A stretch of 64,000 bases of DNA from Aquilaria yunnanensis (lineage: Eukaryota; Streptophyta; Magnoliopsida; Malvales; Thymelaeaceae): contig CM077595.1 in the NCBI GenBank assembly GCA_039654915.1, positions 89,817,501 through 89,881,500 of the forward strand, in the 5' to 3' direction. A program made the translations under genes and the position numbers. Of this stretch, positions 3,141-38,732 are shown piece after piece (position 1 is the stretch's first letter; each line of letters opens with the position of its first letter). The notes below the pieces were generated by a model that was not told the DNA's origin, ran no database searches, and saw only the letters and a list, made by a program, of their open reading frames with translations.

Positions 3141-3194
3141 ATCGATTTTGATTTAAATCAAACCCATCAGTAGTGTGAAAGTGGGTCACGAGTT

Positions 3195-4340
3195 ATGAGC
3201 TTCGAGCTAGAGGGAAGAGGTTACTGCAGTCATGAAGAAGAAGATGAAGATGAAGTCATGAGAGACAATCCTAGCTTCCCGTTTCTCTCTCCATCCCCAG
3301 CTTCCTCCGCCAGCCCAGGTCTATGGCTCCGCGGCTTTGATTCTCAGCGAGACCCACCTCCTGCAGTTGATTCCGACAGAAAATTAGAGTTCGTTGATCT
3401 TACTCTGCGGACCTCCAACGTGGAGACTGCCGCTGCTGGCGGAGAAAGCAGCGGATCCGTAAAGCCTGTTAGTGTTGAGAAAGAACACATGTTTGACAAA
3501 GTGGTGACTCCGAGCGACGTCGGCAAGCTCAACAGGCTGGTAATCCCCAAACAACACGCTGAAAAGTACTTCCCTCTGGACTCGTCCTCGAATGAGAAAG
3601 GTCAGCTGTTGAACTTCGAAGATCGAAATGGCAAGTCGTGGCGATTCCGCTACTCGTACTGGAACAGCAGCCAGAGCTACGTCATGACCAAGGGCTGGAG
3701 CCGCTTCGTCAAGGAGAAGAAGCTTGACGCCGGCGATATTGTCTCCTTCCAGCGCGGCATCGGCGAGGTCGATAGAGGCCGTTTCTACATCGACTGGCGG
3801 CGGCGCCCGGACGTCGTATTGCCGGATCCCGGGAATTTCGGTGGTTTTCATTTCCAGAATCAGTTGAGCTTCGTCCCTCCCTCGATTCGGTGGGGACGGC
3901 TGTACTCGCTCCCCCAAACGACGTCGTTTCCGCGGCGCTTCGAGCCTTCGCCTCGATTGAATTTCGCCGGTTACAATCCTTACGACCATCAACAATACCA
4001 CCACCATTATCAACAAGAGCAACGAATACAACCGGAGCTTCGAGCTGTTGGGTATGGAAATGTGCCGCAGATATATGCGAGGGCATCGCCTTTGTCGAAT
4101 GGAACCCCAATTGGGGCAGCGCAGGAGGGAGGACCGCCGACCGTGATTGAGTCGGTGCCGGTGCTTGTTCCGGCGAACAAGATGGAGGCGGGGAAGAGGC
4201 TGAGGTTGTTTGGCGTCAACATGGAATATGGTACAGAAGACGATTCGTCTTCCTCTTCGTCTTCTTCACTCCACTCGAGAATGCACGCCGAGTGCTCGAA
4301 GAAAGGAAAGTCTTCCTTGTCCTTTGATTTGGATCTCTGA
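3195..4340 (+). CDS. NGATHA-like B3-domain transcription factor
   Basis: A 381-residue protein in one uninterrupted coding exon. Residues about 97-203 are a B3 DNA-binding domain: it begins [20 protein letters not shown], continues with [12 protein letters not shown] and [20 protein letters not shown], and ends FYIDWRRRP. The EHMFDK start and the RLFGVNM motif at residues 337-343 place it with NGATHA proteins rather than NGATHA-like/RAV relatives, and there is no AP2 domain. RLFGV-type motifs are known as repression motifs. The C-terminus FDLDL resembles an EAR motif. In Arabidopsis NGATHA factors act in the nucleus in style development and lateral-organ growth; that role is inferred here. 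The N-terminus has an acidic EEEDEDE run and the tail a serine run near 351-358. The start is the first ATG after the probable leader intron. Start, stop and domain are intact, so I judge it functional. Confidence 0.95.
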
Positions 4341-17085: not shown

Positions 17086-19743
17086 GATCAAAGAACCCAA
17101 CTCTTATTGTCTAGTTTTGGGTTCCGGCTGTTTGGTTGCCTAGATTTTTATCTCTGTAGTTAACTCTGTACCATATATAGGGTGGGGTTGCCTGACTCCC
17201 ACCGAGTCTCCCCACTTTCTAATATATCTTTTTTAGTACATCCTTTTCTTCAATTGATGTGGAAAAAAAAGAAGAAGAAGAAGAAGAAAGCAACTCAAAT
17301 AGAGCTAGAATAAATTCCATCCGTGGTCTCTAATGTTTGATTATTGTGCCATTATGGTCCCCAAGCTTGAAGTCATTCCATTAAATCCTCAATCTCAAAA
17401 AAAGGTACCATTTTCATCTTTTTTGAATAGAAATCATTGTGATGGACAAGAAAATGCCCATCAACCTAAGATTCTATGGAAAATTACATTTTTTTTTCTT
17501 TTTAACCTTATTCTTTTATCCTAATTGAGACCGCAAATTCTATTTTACATACTAAAATCTTAAATAGCCTTTTAAAAATAAATGTAAAAACAACAATTTC
17601 AACCCGTGGAAACTTATATTCCTTTCCCCAGAAACCCTCAATACTTGCCCATTTGACAATTTAGCCACCATTTCCCTTTCTCTCACTTTTGAGCCCTAGT
17701 AGCACCACAGGCTGTTACCTGCTAGAGTAGCGTGGTAGGTTAGGAATTGGCAGCCATAGAGGTGCCTCCTCCATGGTCGCGCACTGCCTGCTCTAGTGCA
17801 GTTTTCCTTTGCCAAGTTGGCAACTTTTTCTGCTTCTAAGTTGATTTTCTAGTCCTTTTTTGTTGCTTTCTTCATAAACTTTCTTTGCTCTTTACCTTAC
17901 AAAAATGCCCAAATCCACTAGAAATTCATTGCTTTGGCCAAATACCTAATGGTCCCAACCCCTTAAATGCCTTGCTCTTTCTACTTGGAACCACTACAAC
18001 AAAATGGTTCATTAGCGACATTTTTTTCAACTTTTAGTGACGTTTTTAAAACGTGGCTTCATATTCTCCGACAATTTAAAAACGCCACAAAAAAATGTCG
18101 TCTAGGTACACGTTGGTAAAGGTTTTAGGTATTTCCCTGCGTTTTATAAATGCAAGTAAAGGACAACCAATAGTGACGCTTTTAACAAGAAACACTGGTA
18201 AATTTATCATATTTAGTCACTTTTTTATTTTTAAAATGTCACTAATGTACTGCTTAATAGCATTTTTATTCAAAAAAATGTAGGCAATGTACATGAATTT
18301 TCTAGCATTTTTGTCAAAAAAATGCTGCTATTAAAGGATAGTTGGAATATTAATTTTCTCTCCTAGTATATCATTGTTCACTTATTTCGTAGTAGGAGAT
18401 CATAATACTACACTATTATCATCAATAAAAATTGCTTGAACATTTATGTTGAATAATGAAAATTTTTAATTAATAAAAATTGTAATAAATTCATAGATGT
18501 AGAAACTCTAAATAATTATGAATTACTATTGTAGTAATAAGATGTCCAAGGTTCAGTACAAAGACTAAATCAAAAAATGACTTCAAGTCCAGCGGCCTCA
18601 CTTCTCTGGGTGGCTCTTTTCCTTCCACCACATCATGTGATTGGCATGAACTAGGTACCACCAATAGTAGAGGAGAAAGCTCAAAATTGGTCCACAAATG
18701 AACTTGTCTTTGATCCTAGCAAACCGATACTAAATACCAAATCGATAAAGGTACCTGAATTTGAAAACAAGTACAAATGCATTTTATGAGTTCCATGAGG
18801 CTCTAATCTTTTCTCATCTAAAAATAAAACCAGACGCATAGCTTGTCGCATATTTAACCACAATCATTAAGCAAATTAGCTGTTCATAATAACCAGAAAT
18901 TTTGGACCTGTAGGCTCAAGCCGAATGCATTCTAATTAAACTACATTCTAACTACTAACACAAGATTACTGTTCATAATAACCAGAAATTTTGGTGTTGT
19001 TCATAAGATACAGCATAGAGAGATTAATCTTGGCAGAAATCAATTCCAAGTTTGTGCAAATTTTAAACCCAATCCCACAGCCATGCATCAGATAAACTAG
19101 AATGTACTTAGGGGGGGAAAGGTCTTGAACTCATAATAACAAAAAAATATCAATTTGATGGAAATAAACAAAGTGAAAATTGCTCGGCGAACTATATTGG
19201 CTGTATCAGTTGTCCTACTTCTGATGAAAAAATAGTCCACAGAAAGCAAGACCTTATAGATGGATATGACTAGTTCTGACCTAGGACTAAGAGCTGATGG
19301 CTGCTAATAGGTGAAACTCTGCTACAATAAGTTATGCCCAAAGTGTTCACAAATCAAATAGGGGACAATTTAATTGGGATGCTAATCGAACATATTAGGC
19401 ATGTTTTCACATAATTCATTGCAGAATTCAATTTTTCTTTGTGACCACAATCCTATGGAAGAAAGATATAGTTGGCTACTTCATTGTCTGCTTTCTTCTA
19501 GAAAATCCCCCCCAGCAGTAGATATAACCCCCAGTTCTATCTAGTAAGACCTAGCAGGAGTCCTATCTACATATAGCTGCGATCATATCACTGTTATTCT
19601 GGTAGTCAGTTCTCAAAAGCTCCAAATTCAGGTTTCAAGTGCCAAATGAGAGCTTCAAGTTTCAATTGAAAACTCAGATAATCTCAGATAATCTTAGGGG
19701 GGAAAGTGATTTACCTTGAGGCCTTCTACTTGACATCTACTTA

Positions 19744-20070
19744 TCAACATGAAACATCCTCAGTAGTTACAAAAATGTCACGTAACAAACCACTCATATC
19801 ATGAGGAAAAACTCGATGAGTCAGTTGCATTTTTCTAAAAGATGAACTAGAAGAAGTGGGTTCTCCATGAAATACAAAACAATGATATCCCTTTTCAAAA
19901 CCATCACACACCAAATGCTCCTTTACCATGTCACGTCTATGCCAAAATAAATTCTTGCAATTCCGGCACGGACATAATATTTTCCCATCTCTTGAACTAT
20001 TCTCAAAAGCATTATTTAGAAAGCCTTCAACCCCTTCATTATACTCCTTATCAAACCTTGGTTTATTCAT
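19744..20070 (-). CDS. Transposase-associated domain protein (CACTA remnant)
   Basis: A 108-codon ORF matching the zinc-binding transposase-associated domain at the N-terminus of plant En/Spm transposases. It has KEYNEGVEGFLNNAF (residues 8-22), CPCRNC (33-38), an EHL (51-53) and a closing GYHCFVFHGE (61-70). That order is typical of the family, where cysteines and histidines probably bind zinc. The usual following DDE transposase domain is absent; the ORF ends after a serine run and about 30 unrelated residues. It lies inside the CACTA element and is the only clear remnant of its own coding sequence. It may be a terminal piece of a longer spliced gene. A functional transposase is unlikely. 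Confidence 0.75.
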   Translation of the reverse strand: MNKPRFDKEYNEGVEGFLNNAFENSSRDGKILCPCRNCKNLFWHRRDMVKEHLVCDGFEKGYHCFVFHGEPTSSSSSFRKMQLTHRVFPHDMSGLLRDIFVTTEDVSC

Positions 20071-21639
20071 CTAACTTTTGTCCATTTTTATGATATAATT
20101 TGACTGCAAAATTTAACACCAAAAACTAATTACAAAAGAAACTAATTACAACTGCATGTATGACAAGCTAAAAAAACCAGAGATCAGAAAAATAAACAAA
20201 AGATAGACACAAAAATAGAAGACACGTCATTAAAGTCAATGAACTAAAACCAGAAGATAGAACATTGGTCACAAATTAGTGAAACTTACAGTTCAAGAGA
20301 CTGATTACAGCAGCAAGCAACAGTGCAAAAAAGGAGGAGACTTCAAAATCAGCTGTGGAAACTTCAAAAAGGGTGCTGGAGTTGATTTCCAAGGAGACTA
20401 GAACAGGGAAGGAACTAATTTTTTTTAACAAAAAACACAACAAAAAAAAAGTCAGAGCAACAAACAAAAAAAATTGTGAACTAATTCAAGATTTCCAAGC
20501 ATTATTTACATCAGGCCTTAGGTCTAATTAAAGATTTGAGCACAATCCAGTTCAACAATCAAGGTCATTTTCTGACAAATTTTTAGCAATGTATTTATTT
20601 TAGAGTGGACCATGAACAGAAGAAAAATCCATCATCACAAAACGTTCATAATTTCAAAATTTTCAAGCCCAGAAGGACACTGTTATATATATATATATAT
20701 AAGAGTAGCACAGAAACCAAGGACAGGGCTTCTGCTTGATCAAAATAATGCACAGTATACAAAATAGAGACCTAAAGATAACTCACTAAAAATATCTAGA
20801 ATAAAAACAAATACTATAAATATTATAAGCATTTGCATTTCCTTCGTAATTATCTAAACATTCAATTAATGATGTGTTTTATCCATCGTCACAAAACATT
20901 CAATTTATTGGTAGTGGCAAAAAAAGAAAAACTGACATTTCTCATTTCCCTTGAAATCCATCAAATTGGGGTGATGAAAAACTAAGCCTTCAATGGAAAT
21001 GAAGGGATTATTGGTTCCACTTTATTTTGCTTTTTTTTTGTACGAAACAAAGGAAATAAATCAAACATCCCTTTCCCATCTTCTATTATTGTTCAATATC
21101 AAAAGGCTGTTAAGGATGGGTGAAATCAAAATAAATCCTATATTTCTTAAGGTGTGCACCAAATGTATAAAATTTATTTTATGTTTATGATATTTTATAT
21201 TTTAGGAACCTTACTTTTCAATGATCTTATTTACCAGGACTTTGAAAATCCTTCAACCAAGTGCACACTTTCTTTCTTTTTATTTATTTATTTATTTATT
21301 GATGAATAGATCATTTTACTTTTGAATTTGCATATGGTTTGAGTGTCTCCCATGCATATGATGCATCCCAAGAAGAGCATGAAAATCCTACCATTCAACC
21401 TTCAAGTGGAGCGTAAAAATTTATTTTTGATGACACCAATTAGAATGTAACAGTCAAGAAAGAAAGACTATAAGCATGCAAATCTGAATCAAAGAAAGAA
21501 TGACAATTCAAACAAATTGTCTTGTTCTTTAGAGAAGTAGATTCAAACACTAACAACCAAGCATTTAACTGACAAGGAAACCTCTAGAACATAAAAAAGT
21601 AGGCAAGGCAACCTAGAAGAAGAACAAGATGAAGCATAC

Positions 21640-21902
21640 CTCCAAGGGCAACATGCTTTCCTGTTTCAATATAAAAGGAAAAAAGAACAATGCATCAGAT
21701 TGTATAAGAACAACAAAAAACTGTACCAAAACATTAAAATGAAAACTTTCAACAACATACACCACGTCAATATAAAAAGAAAAAAGAAAAACTATCCTTT
21801 CTGTTACCTAATGACATGGCAACTGCATATAGGTCTTTAATAGCCAGCTCAGAAACAATTTCCAAAGAATGCCTCACAGCAACCGGATCAGCAAATGAAA
21901 TC
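21640..21902 (-). pseudogene. Captured exon pair of an unidentified host gene
   Basis: Two exon-like segments with splice signals. The first is 21808-21902, bounded by TACTGCAG and G/GTAACAG and encoding ISFADPVAVRHSLEIVSEL then AIKDLYAVAMSLG. The second is 21640-21660, bounded by GAAACAG and GAG/GTATGC. Joined, the frame continues as LGKHVALGG. The helix-rich translation resembles part of a large ARM/HEAT-repeat plant protein, but that is recollection, not a search. Exons of a cellular gene inside a CACTA element, still separated by an intron, indicate capture of genomic DNA. The rest of the gene is not visible, so it is a fragment. Confidence 0.55.
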
Positions 21903-22485
21903 CTGCAGTAACATAAGCACCAGCCTGGAAAATGAATATGGAAGCCACCAATAGCTTTTCTTTTAAGTAAAATATGCAACAATAAGAATGAAATTAAATT
22001 CGGCCAAGCTCAGGAAACAAAAAAATAATAGTAAGCATAGTTAACTTGCAAGATATAGAGGAAAACAGAACTGAAGATCTATAGAACAGAAAAATAAATA
22101 AAAAGCAAAGACTTTTTTATCTGCAAATCATATTGATGCATCTCCCCAACAATAAACCTTGGTGATTCCTGTATTTGTGTGGACTTGTAACAACTAATCT
22201 TAACAACCTTCAGGTTATTAACATTAAATGCCATTACCATTCACATTATATAGGAAGTGTAAATTCACAAGTATTAAAGAACTTGGTGTTTTTGTAATTA
22301 TGCAAAAAAAGAAAACAAAGGACTCTCGCTGACCAAGCAAAAACAACCTAGTATTCTATAACAGCAAGTCAAATGGTAACGTAGATGCTCTGAGTTCAAT
22401 CAAAATTTCGGCCCCCAAATCTTCAACAACAGGAACGCTGATACAAATCTAGTTGCAAAGCAAACCGACATAAACCAATACAGCT

Positions 22486-23100
22486 TCAGTACTTAACAGA
22501 AGCAAGGACGTCTAGCTGGGAACCTAGTTTCTCTTCTGCTGTCTTCTCTGCCTTCAACTTCAGTTTGTTTAGCTGCTTTCTCCTGTCATATGCAACTTGA
22601 GCTCTCTCCTTTCTCTTCTTTTCAAGTTCCTGCATTATCAAATCCCATTGGTTAAATCTTTCAGTAATTATGCAAGAAAACCTCGATACCCTATAAAAAA
22701 CAAGTTTAGATTAACTTTTTGTAACATCTACACTCAATCCACCATCCCTTGTCCAAAAATAAAGAAAAAGAATGTGTTACATGATGTTCATTTCTATTTA
22801 ACAAGCAAAAGTTTGTCGCATATTATAGAACAGATCTCTCAGGTGGCTGAAAAACTTATACTCTGTCTATTATTTTTCAATCGAAAAAAAATAAGAGAGA
22901 GTAACAAGATGGCCAGAGAAGAAATTATAAGCCCAAAATAAGCACATACTTCATTCTTATCATAAAATGTAGGGATCTTTAATCTCTTCAATGCAATGGA
23001 GTGAAAACCAACCTTGATGGTGTCGTAATGGTTCCATCCAACCTCAGATGACAATTTGTTGAGCAAGCAGTACTTATGACCCTTCTGAAGCCTCAACACC
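22486..23100 (-). pseudogene. RPL13A: Captured 3' part of the ribosomal protein L13a gene
   Basis: Two exons of a cytosolic 60S ribosomal protein L13a gene. Exon 23013-23100 encodes [20 protein letters not shown] then GWNHYDTIK; exon 22486-22629 encodes [14 protein letters not shown] through [17 protein letters not shown] and a TGA stop. The acceptors AAATTAG and AATGCAG and the donor AAG/GTTGG are intact, and the join keeps frame. L13a is about 206 residues, so only the last 77 or so are present; the 5' exons are missing. Because the intron is retained, the copy came from genomic DNA, not from mRNA. It sits inside the CACTA element, so it is a transduplicated fragment rather than the working gene. 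The two exons have no stops or frameshifts, suggesting fairly recent capture. Confidence 0.85.
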
Positions 23101-23294
23101 CTAATTTCATTTGACAATAGATCAGTGAAAACTCAAATTAAGAAGGCATCACGCAAAAGCGCACACTACAAAATCACTTCCAGGGCAGAATGTGAATTTA
23201 TGTAGGGACACAGGTAAAGGGCCGTTTGCAGAAAAATATTCTACAAGTCACTAGACAAGTTGTGAGTCATCGATATATATATATATATATGTAC

Positions 23295-23610
23295 CAATTT
23301 GTGGGGGAGTTGTTGTTGAGCTATTGAAGGGAGAATCACGGGCGGAAATCATGCGCTGCAATCCCTCGATTACACCGGAAGCAATTTTCAATGTTACCTT
23401 TGGTCTTGATAAGAAGTCCTGCAGCTTTCGGGCGGGGAATGTGGAATTCTTGTGAAAGGCAACGGTAGTGGGTCGAGCAGACGAAGCGGTGGTGGAAGGA
23501 GCTGATGAAACACCGGCGGAAGAAGGTTTCCGCTGAGAAGCCACCGACTGGTAGTAATGGCGAAGGAAGACACCAGTTGCATGCCGCACGCGTCTCCTTC
23601 TCCCCCCCAA
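23295..23610 (-). other. Unidentified ORF at the right end of the CACTA element
   Basis: An open frame starting MGGRRRRVRHATGVFLRHYY, rich in Arg, Ser and Ala, continuing through STFPARKLQDFLSRPKVTLK and GVIEGLQRMISARD to a donor-like ATTG/GTACAT at 23294/23295. It is more GC-rich than its surroundings and resembles an organelle-targeting leader. I do not recognise it. It may be a third captured host exon and the first exon of a chimeric transcript. If spliced directly to the L13a exon at 23100, the phases do not match and a stop follows at once. Confidence 0.4.
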
Positions 23611-24386
23611 ACTCTTTTTCTCCCCCCAAACCCTTTTTCTTAATTTTTGGACCGGGTAGGGGTTTGTTTTTGTTAGTGGGCCGAACCATTTAGCTGCATT
23701 TTAGAAATTAGTCGGTCTTATGTGGACTTTGAACTGCATTTTTAGGACTTTGTTGGGCTTGGATAGATATTTTGTTACAATTTTTTAAACATGTCAAGTA
23801 TAATAAGTCATTTTAGCTGCATTTTTTTAAATTCGTTGGGTTTAAATAGTTCTTTACTTACATTTTTTTTAAACATGTCAGTAATAATATGTTTTTTCCG
23901 ACATTGTTTTGAAAACGTCGGTAAATGTATGTCACCTATAAACCTTTTTGTTGTAGTGAACCTTTCTGGGAGAGCATAAAAAGCAATTGCTTTTTCACAT
24001 AGTAGAAGGCGATGTTGATTCTAGCTAAGAATTAGGCAAGTGGGACTCTTCCTTAACCTTATTCTCTAGTGATTGCTTGGATGAAAAAAAGTTGTTCTTC
24101 GAGAATGAATTAGAAGGAGAATAAGCAGGCCTCCCAGTTTTCCCCTGAAATACTTTTCCCAAATAGAAGTTGAAATTTCTCCTTTCATTATCAGAATTCA
24201 ACTTAATGCTATCTGGGTTTTGTTTGTGACATGAAGTGAGGAAATGGAAGGAGTTCGAGGTTAGGGATAAAAGTGTAATAATAATTAAAGGTTCAAGATC
24301 ACAGTTGTAATTTATCTAATAGCTATCTATGGAATTAACATTGGTTTTGTTAATTTGCTAATCAATGATATGTCCATGTACTAGTA

Positions 24387-36297: not shown

Positions 36298-37613
36298 TGA
36301 AAGCTTGGTCATGTACATCAAGTGGTAGACCAGTAAGAGAATCTTCATCTTATTCAAGCATGGCTAAACATATTAATGAACAAAAAAATAATCATTCTCT
36401 ACATAATGACCAAGATCAACCTAAGACATTTAGAAAATATATGAACCTCATAAGAAATAGCATTCAATTATGTCTAATATTTCCTACTGATGCATGACAC
36501 TTCAATTTCAAGCTAGGTATTATTCAACTTTTAACAACTTTTCATGACTTTGATTCTAAAAATCCGTACTTGCATTTGAGGGAATTTGAGGAAGTCTGTC
36601 ACATATATAATAACCTAAACTATAGCATGAACACGATCAGGCTTAAGCTTTTTTCCTTTTTTTTTTTAAAGATAAAGCTAAAACTTGGCTACAGTATATT
36701 AGGTCTGGCTCCATTAATTCATGGGATGAATTGTAACAACAATTTTAATAAAAAATTTTCCTGCCCACAGAACAAATTCTTTCAAAAGGCAAATCACTAC
36801 TTTCACACAAAAATCAGAGAAAACTTTTTACTAATGTTGGCATAGAGATAAGGATTTATTTAATACATGCCCACATCATGGTTTTAAAACATGGAGATTA
36901 GTCTCACATTTTTATGAAGGTTTGACACCTAAGGAAAAGCAAATAGTGGAAATGATGTGCAATGAAACATTTGAAGATAAAAATTACGATGAAGCAATGA
37001 ATTATCTAAACTTGCTAGCAGAGAATGCATAGAACTGGGACACCGCTGGTACCTATGAGGCCTCAAGTAAGACTCAATCACCTACATCTAGTGGAGGCAT
37101 ATATCATATTAAAGAAGATAATGACCTTCAAAAAAATTCGCATCTCTAGCTAAAAAGGTTGAAGCTTTGGAAATGAAGAAAGTTGGTCAATTAAAATCCG
37201 TTGAAGAAATTATTTGTCACATTTGTAAGACCAATGACCATTCCACTAGCAATTGCCAAACATTGCCCTCTTTCAAAGAATGTCTCCATGAACAAGTTAG
37301 TGCTTTGAACAACTTCAATAGGCCAACACAAAATCCATACTCACAAACATACAATCCTGGTTGGAGAAATCATCCGAACTTCAGTTGGAGAAATGACAAT
37401 TATGCTCAATCATCACAACCATTTTTGCACACCCAACAAAATTTTCAACAATCTCAAGGGTATGTACGGTATGTATCTCCTTTTAAGAAAAATCTTGAAG
37501 CAACATTGCATTCATTTATTGAGAAGCAAGAGTCCATCAATGCTCAAACAAGTCAAACCATGATTGATTTGAAAAATACGCTTGTAAAATTTGCATATGC
37601 ACTCAACATTTAG
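36297..37613 (+). pseudogene. gag pseudogene of the gypsy element
   Basis: Capsid/nucleocapsid gene broken into several frames. Recognisable pieces are NPYLHLREFEEVCHIYN (near 36560), MNTIRLKLFSF, then at about 36900 an E.MCNETFEDKN.DEAMNYL stretch, and at 37167-37613 the zinc knuckle CHICKTNDHSTSNC (CX2CX4HX4C) followed by NPYSQTYNPGWRNHPNFSW. At least three frameshifts or stops interrupt it, for example at 36498, 36843 and 37030. Confidence 0.85.
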
Positions 37614-38051: not shown

Positions 38052-38732
38052 TTGAAATACAAAAATCCTGGTTGTCTAACAATTACATGTTTCATTGGAG
38101 AACATAAAATTGAGCAAGCATTACTTGATTTTGAGGCTTGTGTAAACTTACTTCCATATTCAGTTTACCAAAAACTAAATTTGGGTAAGTTAAAACCAAC
38201 CGAAATAACTTTTTTGCTTGTTGATAGATCAGTGAAAGTGCCCAAATGAGTCATTGAATATGTGTTAGTCCAAGTTGATAAATTCATATATCTTGTGGAT
38301 TTTATTGTTTTGAACACACCACCAGTGGAAATAAAAATTTCAATACCTATTATCCTAAGACGTCCATTTTTAGCAACCTCTAATGCTTTGATTAATTGCA
38401 GGAATGGATTGATGAAGCTGGCATTTTGGAATATGACATTGGAGTTAAATGTTTTTAATTTGCTTAAGCAACCTTCTGAAAGGGAAAATGAAAATGAGGA
38501 AGTTTGCATAATTGACACTATTATGAAAAACCACATCGAAGAGGTAGAGGGAAACACATGTTGGACACCAAAAATTGAAGAGTTGGGAAAACTTAGAGTT
38601 GAAGAGCAAAATAAAATCCACACAATGGAGTTGAAGCTCTTACCCAAAGAAATGAAGTTCCTAATATCAAAGCAAAATGCTAAACCAAGACTGATACGCT
38701 GGATCGTATTATTCAAGAGTTCAACACTGTGA
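38052..38732 (+). pseudogene. Protease pseudogene fused to an RNase H remnant
   Basis: The retroviral-type aspartic protease segment begins NPGCLTITCFIGEHKIEQAL. The active-site motif, normally D[LST]GA, has become DFEA in LLDFEACVNLLPYSVYQKL, and a TGA stop interrupts it at about 38247. The downstream half includes PIILRRPFLATSNALI. Shortly after MELKLLPKEMKFL, which precedes reverse transcriptase in intact elements, the sequence jumps to AKPRLIRW, the end of RNase H. Reverse transcriptase and most of RNase H are therefore deleted near 38670. Confidence 0.8.

Follow-up and report, generated by a model that had tools for sequence, protein, structure and literature searches.

A CACTA element of Aquilaria yunnanensis carrying unspliced fragments of RPL13a and other host loci

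The element and its family

The window analysed here is a 64,000-bp stretch of the Aquilaria yunnanensis genome (contig CM077595.1, positions 89,817,501 to 89,881,500), and at 17992-23958 it contains a CACTA element of 5,967 bp with 13-bp matching ends. The terminal inverted repeat (TIR) CACTACAACAAAA, which starts with CACTA, occupies 17992-18004 and its reverse complement 23946-23958; the 13-mer has two exact copies in the window, and these are the two element ends. A target site duplication (TSD) of AAC flanks the element on the left (17989-17991) and on the right (23959-23961). We take 17992-18004 as the 3' end and 23946-23958 as the 5' end because the transposase remnant described below lies on the minus strand. 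CACTA-starting TIRs and a 3-bp TSD are features of the CACTA (En/Spm, CMC) superfamily, and candidate subterminal repeats lie close to the ends in both orientations, including an inverted pair (18030-18052 with 23906-23928, 83%) and a direct pair (23728-23789 with 23811-23872, 74%). The initial annotation had described a CACTA element with both termini and the AAC duplication intact, and this was borne out; an origin of the termini from two different elements was ruled out, as the TSD and the sibling copies tie both ends to one element.

Twenty family copies, whole or partial, were sampled. Both ends were located in ten, all of which have matching 3-bp TSDs; the other ten are L013, which is missing the last 6 bp of its 3' end, and nine copies in which at least one end was not located in the sequence retrieved. 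Comparison with these copies divides the element, on its minus strand, into native and acquired sequence. The native 3' part (17992-19103), with subterminal repeats near its end, is 91-96% identical to copies with other cargo, and is followed by a stretch seen only in siblings with the same cargo (19104-19674; entire in L011, partial in L009, L010 and L013) and by native internal sequence (19675-20883). The internal sequence includes the N-terminus of a CACTA transposase, a 108-amino-acid remnant at 19744-20070 with a Transpos_assoc domain (PF13963, E 5.4e-24) that had been absent from the initial annotation. The catalytic part is absent from the element: the remnant aligns to the start of an 815-amino-acid open reading frame (ORF) in L013, a sibling with the same cargo, and about 2.2 kb found in L013 is deleted from the element after 19762. 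The L013 ORF has Transpos_assoc, Transposase_21 and DUF4218 domains and is without the C-terminal PF13952 that many relatives have; its identity to plant relatives is at most 62% among the 120 matches listed. A TNPD-type transposase of the CACTA superfamily (Transpos_assoc, Transposase_21) is thus present in the family, as an N-terminus in the element and as an ORF in L013.

The native 5' part (23380-23958, minus strand) comprises the TIR, subterminal repeats and a GC-rich putative leader exon, which ends at 23398 and is followed by a splice-donor-like GTAACA. Two of the ten other copies checked (L018 and L025) lack this donor string. The GC-richer ORF in this region had been listed as unidentified, and a reading of it as a further captured gene did not stand. 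Since 23380-23958 is the 5' region of the family and is also present in copies with other cargo, most of the ORF belongs to the putative leader exon native to the family; its sole Pfam match fell below the cut-off, and the foreign share of the region is limited to 23198-23378. We infer a leader-exon role for this 5' region.

The captured cassette

Three host-derived pieces lie between the native parts, all on the minus strand. The RPL13a fragment (22304-23190) consists of part of an intron, the penultimate exon (23013-23100, with an upstream AG and a GT donor), an intron, the last exon including the stop codon (22486-22629, with an upstream AG) and 3' flank. Joined, the two exons match residues 131-206 of plant uL13 (best E 1e-36), and the two RPL13a exons that had been predicted here with their intron on one strand are the last two of the gene. 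When each fragment was used as a query against the whole source genome (842 Mb), the likely RPL13a donor was a gene with four open exons on C3 (locus L016), which is 98.0% identical over 887 bp (C3:99173945-99174831). Donor aside, six loci including the element are at least 98% identical to the fragment and all are CACTA family copies. A full RPL13a gene at this locus was ruled out because the peptides of the two upstream exons, both present in L016, had no match in the window.

The second host-gene fragment (20903-22293) likewise holds exons and introns, and the two exons assigned to it in the initial annotation (21640-21660, 21 bp; 21808-21902, 95 bp) have both kept their flanking AG and GT. 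Homologs identify it as a conserved plant gene, which is probably TASH3, an SH3-domain protein of the TPLATE complex; searches of PDB and Pfam gave no name. Two loci were found genome-wide, both on C2 (C2:59327282-59328668 and C2:43007503-43008888; 95.6%), and these are its likely donors. The search for parental loci that had been suggested thus returned likely donors on C3 (98.0%) and C2 (95.6%). Because the captured pieces retain donor introns a spliced mRNA intermediate is unlikely, in keeping with the earlier exclusion of an mRNA intermediate. The second-gene fragment is further from its donor (95.6%, gaps counted) than is the RPL13a fragment (98.0%). Small insertions missing from both C2 loci are also common to the elements; given these differences, the two fragments may have been acquired on separate occasions, or from an allele since lost.

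The third piece (23198-23378, 181 bp) is 93% identical to C7:6065250-6065424, a match that lies about 0.8 kb downstream of an ORF with an RWP-RK domain. The cassette lies behind the element's own GC-rich 5' region and is a head-to-tail series of unspliced fragments, with matches on C7, C3 (RPL13a) and C2 (second gene) and short fillers between them. On the minus strand, a 7-nt filler (23191-23197) separates the third piece from RPL13a and a 10-nt filler, GCATAATTAC (22294-22303), separates RPL13a from the second gene. Together with the preceding TT, the 10-nt filler reproduces TTGCATAATTAC, a sequence of the RPL13a intron. In a post hoc test of this one junction, dinucleotide shuffles of the two fragments contained the 10-mer in 8 of 2000 cases and the 12-mer in 1 of 2000.

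Assembly of the cassette

We consider it very probable that the element is a non-autonomous, transposase-deleted CACTA of a Pack-CACTA-like family, with a cassette that was assembled by break repair and multiplied by transposition. The starting point would have been a break within the element, such as one left by excision or formed during replication; in its aberrant repair the repairing strand would have changed between unlinked templates, with one backward slip before the next was taken up. A capture later trimmed by internal deletion would leave a very similar picture; L011 retains more second-gene sequence than the element at 17992-23958. The fusion of RPL13a and the second gene would have been made once and then spread by transposition: the fusion point and its filler are common to five of the six loci with at least 98% identity to the RPL13a fragment, while L011 is broken there. 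At least six family copies carry the RPL13a and second-gene cargo, and the matching TSDs that L009, L010, L011 and L012 each possess indicate that the captured piece was multiplied by transposition. The search for siblings suggested in the initial annotation was in this respect productive, as copies with the same cargo were found at other genome sites.

An alternative that we regard as unlikely is the published route for Arabidopsis Pack-CACTA elements, in which two neighbouring elements flank host DNA, the inner ends are lost and the outer ends move together (PMC8903248; PMC13317346). One family copy is located about 15 kb from the C7 match and another, L030, about 48 kb away, and because of the nearer copy acquisition of the C7 piece by local hopping would fit. 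However, a single piece from a single place is explained more easily by this route than a chain is, and here pieces matching three chromosomes adjoin through 7- and 10-nt fillers, and their junction sequences include no transposon end. A search for CACTA ends (the 13-mer with at most one mismatch) in the 9-9.5 kb surrounding the RPL13a and C2 donors was likewise negative. That the 10-nt filler copies RPL13a intron sequence speaks for templated repair of a break rather than for excision of neighbouring elements.

Another mobile element could have assembled the fused piece and then inserted into the CACTA element, and Helitrons often collect unspliced gene pieces. We rejected this as highly improbable because whole-genome searches with the fragments found both together only in CACTA family copies, and no second set of ends was apparent in the junction sequences.

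Coding state and related elements

In the element itself the two exons of RPL13a and the two of the second gene remain open and retain their splice sites, as the initial annotation had noted, although this openness is no sign of function since two siblings, L009 and L010, have nonsense changes in their RPL13a exons. Selection for a chimeric gene, which the four open exons might suggest, has very little probability. One of the three leader frames is open across the predicted splice product of leader and RPL13a, but it needs a later ATG to start, and in the other two a stop follows within about 8 codons of the junction. Codon differences across copies amount to 25 nonsynonymous and 5 synonymous (neutral expectation, 0.709 nonsynonymous). 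On sibling stops, frame analysis and these counts a selected chimeric protein was rejected, and the captured exons are apparently neutral cargo. If transcription passed through the leader, its splice donor could join the captured exons to give alternatively spliced chimeric RNAs, by analogy with Tgm-Express1 of soybean. As the cargo follows a putative leader exon that has its own donor-like site, chimeric transcription is directly testable.

The element is a clear new example of gene capture, a habit already known from CACTA elements, and does not represent a new type of element. The route by which such pieces are acquired is as yet unsettled. Here one genome offers likely donors for three pieces, a shared junction and an intron-matching filler, so the break-repair and neighbouring-element models make different, checkable predictions. 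Among the eight papers found that contain both terms, RPL13a and CACTA, none by its title concerns a plant transposon. Of the systems compared, the Tpn1 family of Japanese morning glory (CACTA/En-Spm) is described as mostly transposase-less, with shared ends, 3-bp TSDs, interiors replaced by captured genic DNA, a few copies that keep TnpD, and chimeric transcripts (PMC5105172; PMC8195511). The Aquilaria family resembles it in its shared ends, swapped host cargo, 3-bp TSDs and general lack of transposase; it differs in the genes captured and in having likely donors and a shared filler junction located, and is known from DNA alone. Tgm-Express1, a CACTA element of 5.7 kb, holds five fragments of host genes, exons and introns included, which are spliced as extra exons (PMC1947982). 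The Aquilaria element likewise holds unspliced fragments with exons and introns; the soybean element, in contrast, occupies the intron of a gene and has chimeric RNAs that were sequenced, whereas ours has been seen only as genomic sequence.

Pack-CACTA and Pack-TYPE transposons are described as non-autonomous elements with TIRs, whose coding DNA comes from a single locus or from several (PMC8903248). The element agrees with this, and with Tpn1-like elements, in carrying host gene fragments from several loci inside intact CACTA ends, with donors elsewhere in the genome and without a complete transposase (the 108-amino-acid N-terminus only). It differs from the Pack-CACTA elements described there in that a sibling with the same cargo, L013, keeps the 815-amino-acid ORF, and in direct host-host junctions that are not easily explained by the proposed route. 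In the Jozin CACTA elements of Chenopodium, captured gene fragments lie 5', upstream of the transposase-associated domain (PMC8978399, in the part available), and the Aquilaria cargo is similarly placed; a leader exon, donor loci and junction fillers are not among the features described in that part.

Other family copies have, at about the same position and in the same direction, VDAC-like or ankyrin-repeat (AKR2-like) exons; the VDAC-like composite had a Pfam match to Porin_3 and no match in PDB. We suggest, tentatively and with the balance against it, that the family works as a moving exon trap, in which template switching among unlinked loci and siblings repeatedly pastes new host DNA just behind the leader exon, in the direction of transcription. 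The donor string is missing from L018 and L025 and four cases are few, but the four cargoes in which exons can be recognised (RPL13a, second gene, VDAC-like and AKR2-like) all run in the transposase direction in the copies examined. The AKR2-like carrier L029 also has a second-gene piece, which contains the small insertions of the elements and is 97-98% identical to five of six siblings (L009, 94%) but 94% identical to both host loci.

The element and its family

The window corresponds to C3:89817501-89881500 of the 842-Mb assembly (C1-C8 denote chromosomes). The element is 5,967 bp long (17992-23958), with CACTACAACAAAA at one end and the reverse complement at the other; this 13-mer has exactly two exact copies in the 64-kb window, both at the element ends. 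These 13-bp ends sit within an imperfect inverted repeat (30 bp, 83%), and AAC flanks the element on either side as a target-site duplication. RPL13a and second-gene sequence occur together in at least six copies, namely the element, L009 and L013 (both C4), L010 (C5), L011 (C1) and L012 (C7), and the sibling elements that the initial annotation suggested seeking therefore exist. Five of these six carry matching 3-bp duplications at both ends (AAC, AGG, TCT, TTA and TAA), which upholds the assignment of both termini to one element; one end of L013, at the 3' terminal repeat, lacks its last 6 bp. Five of the six copies share, with point changes, the RPL13a / GCATAATTAC / second gene junction, at which L011 is broken. 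We infer a single fusion that was multiplied through transposition. The element is well supported as a new case of a known kind, resembling Tpn1, Tgm-Express and Pack-CACTA elements, and what makes it useful is that its likely donors were located and that copies share an apparently templated junction, which is informative on the mechanism of capture.

Three minus-strand parts (17992-19103, 19675-20883 and 23380-23958) were taken as native because they are present in family copies with other cargo (L018, L019, L025 and others), and 19104-19674 was found only in same-cargo siblings (L011, and partly L009, L010 and L013). A 108-aa ORF at 19744-20070 (minus strand; PF13963, E 5.4e-24) is, from its domain match, the start of a CACTA transposase; about 2.2 kb that follow this start in L013 are missing from the element. 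An 815-aa ORF at L013:7068-9512 (+) encodes a transposase with the domains Transpos_assoc, Transposase_21 and DUF4218, so cargo and transposase ORF can occur together in one copy. We do not call L013 autonomous, as this ORF lacks PF13952, which many relatives possess. The GC-richer ORF, first noted as unidentified, consists for the most part of 5' sequence native to the family; we read this region as a putative leader exon whose end is at 23398 and whose donor is GTAACA. Of ten other copies checked, eight contain the string AAAGGTAACA and two, L018 and L025, lack it. Frame-breaking differences among copies indicate that the leader region is probably untranslated.

Likely donors of the captured pieces

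The captured exons, all on the minus strand, comprise an RPL13a exon (23013-23100), the RPL13a terminal exon (22486-22629) and two second-gene exons (21808-21902 and 21640-21660), each with AG upstream and, the terminal exon excepted, GT downstream. When joined, the RPL13a exons match plant uL13 chains in the PDB (residues 131-206, best E 1e-36). Peptides of the two earlier RPL13a exons had no match within the window, in agreement with capture rather than continuity with a full gene here. Both likely donors lie elsewhere in the genome, RPL13a on C3 (98.0% identity, 22304-23190 against C3:99173945-99174831) and the second gene on C2 (95.6%, 20903-22293 against C2:59327282-59328668 and C2:43007503-43008888). 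The RPL13a donor locus has four open exons, and the captured fragment differs from it at 3 of 232 exon sites and 15 of 654 other sites; searching the whole genome with the captured fragment yielded 13 rows, namely six family copies (the element included), the donor and six rows from four more diverged loci (77-90%).

Exons of the second gene were found by genome search at the two C2 loci only; besides these, the 20 rows for the fragment comprised the element, L009-L013, the family copies L029 and L030, and four short rows (30-36 bp). The two loci are 98.9% alike across 8.25 kb, through either recent duplication or assembly duplication, and their shared stretch contains ORFs that we take to be Copia-like. 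At C2:59.3 Mb further second-gene exons lie beyond an interrupting stretch, presumably a Copia-like element. Joined in order, the exon pieces are 99-100% covered by single plant proteins (P0001, 74%; P0002, 80%), which supports their origin in one gene. Among 70 homologs, one (P0049; 68% across 28% of the query) bears the name Sh3 domain-containing protein, and we take the gene to be TASH3, a subunit of the TPLATE complex. A third piece (23198-23378) is 93% identical to C7:6065250-6065424 and has four matches in all (the element, L009, L010 and the C7 locus); an RWP-RK-domain ORF lies about 0.8 kb upstream of the C7 match on the same strand. The C7 match is also about 15 kb from a family copy (C7:6080624-6082371) and about 48 kb from L030.

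Mode of capture

Pieces matching three chromosomes adjoin via fillers of 7 and 10 nt. We propose that capture probably took place through break repair: a break inside the element would be repaired by synthesis with template switching, the repair strand slipping back along the strand it had just copied and only then moving on to the next template. A templated filler is the expected trace of such repair, and the 10-nt filler with its preceding TT is identical to TTGCATAATTAC, which lies a few hundred bp back within the RPL13a intron. Among 2000 dinucleotide shuffles of both fragments, 8 contained the 10-mer and 1 the 12-mer, in a post hoc test of this one junction. Passages of the Pack-TIR work in animals reason similarly about microhomology and gap filling (PMC8277862). 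Against break repair, the second-gene fragment is less donor-like (95.6%) than RPL13a (98.0%), and element copies share small insertions absent from the C2 loci. The pieces may have been taken up one after another, or an allele since lost may have been the source. More of the second gene survives in L011 than in the element, so internal deletion also shaped the cassette.

The route outlined in parts of the Pack-CACTA literature, by neighbouring insertions and aberrant excision (PMC8903248, PMC13317346), would fit the family copy some 15 kb from the C7 piece. However, that route would most simply leave one piece, taken from next to an element, inner CACTA ends were not seen at the junctions examined and no family end was found in the 9-9.5 kb examined around the RPL13a and C2 donors, and we regard it as improbable. 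A spliced RNA template is disfavoured, as the initial annotation had held more categorically, because the captured pieces are unspliced genomic DNA.

Coding potential, other cargoes and neighbouring ORFs

Transcription from near the 5' end could join the leader donor to the captured acceptors. This would parallel Tgm-Express1, in which five fragments are spliced as extra exons (PMC1947982). In a leader and RPL13a splice product, one of the three leader frames would be open into the RPL13a exons, from a later ATG only, and stop codons close both remaining frames no more than about 8 codons past the junction. Of the codon differences in captured exons among copies, with donors left out and changes shared by sister copies counted more than once, 25 are nonsynonymous, stops in two cases, and 5 are synonymous, where neutrality predicts a nonsynonymous fraction of 0.709; one further nonsynonymous change lies outside the 25. 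The captured exons look like neutral passengers.

AKR2-like ankyrin exons are carried by L029 and L030, and match 5eid (E 2e-36) and 4tum (E 5e-36), Ankyrin repeat domain-containing protein 2, among 412 matches of which several others score higher in total over the repeats; we assume both chains to be of plant origin. This cargo is 95% identical over 1.6 kb to C6:24959836-24961466, a candidate donor, and adjoins both a 360-bp piece of the second gene and a stretch with 95% identity to C8:26606893-26607557, which sits downstream of ORFs that presumably resemble a RelA/SpoT homolog. L029:226-4473 and L030:9-4454 represent another multi-donor cassette. The L029 second-gene piece is 97-98% identical to five of the six sibling elements and 94% to both L009, which has a 14-bp deletion within the matching stretch, and the two C2 loci. 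Since it is closer to most of the siblings and has small insertions in common with the elements, a sister element is a more likely source for it than the gene itself. VDAC-like exons are carried by L018:2421-7273, where Porin_3 matched a composite of three pieces (E 5.3e-9) and none of the three frames searched singly. Leaving aside matches next to known family copies, the longest for this cargo is C2:108440780-108441807 (98%), a donor-like sequence beside a further stretch that recurs at several other sites. All four cargoes with recognisable exons run in the transposase direction of the family, a bias that, in four cases, is only suggestive.

Elsewhere in the window, ORFs at 37125-37613 and 38250-38732 (+) had no Pfam match and look to us like remnants of a Gypsy gag/protease region. 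In a 388-aa ORF at 3174-4340 (+), a match to PF02362 (E 2.3e-28) marks a B3 DNA-binding domain; the ORF presumably resembles a NGATHA/RAV-type factor.
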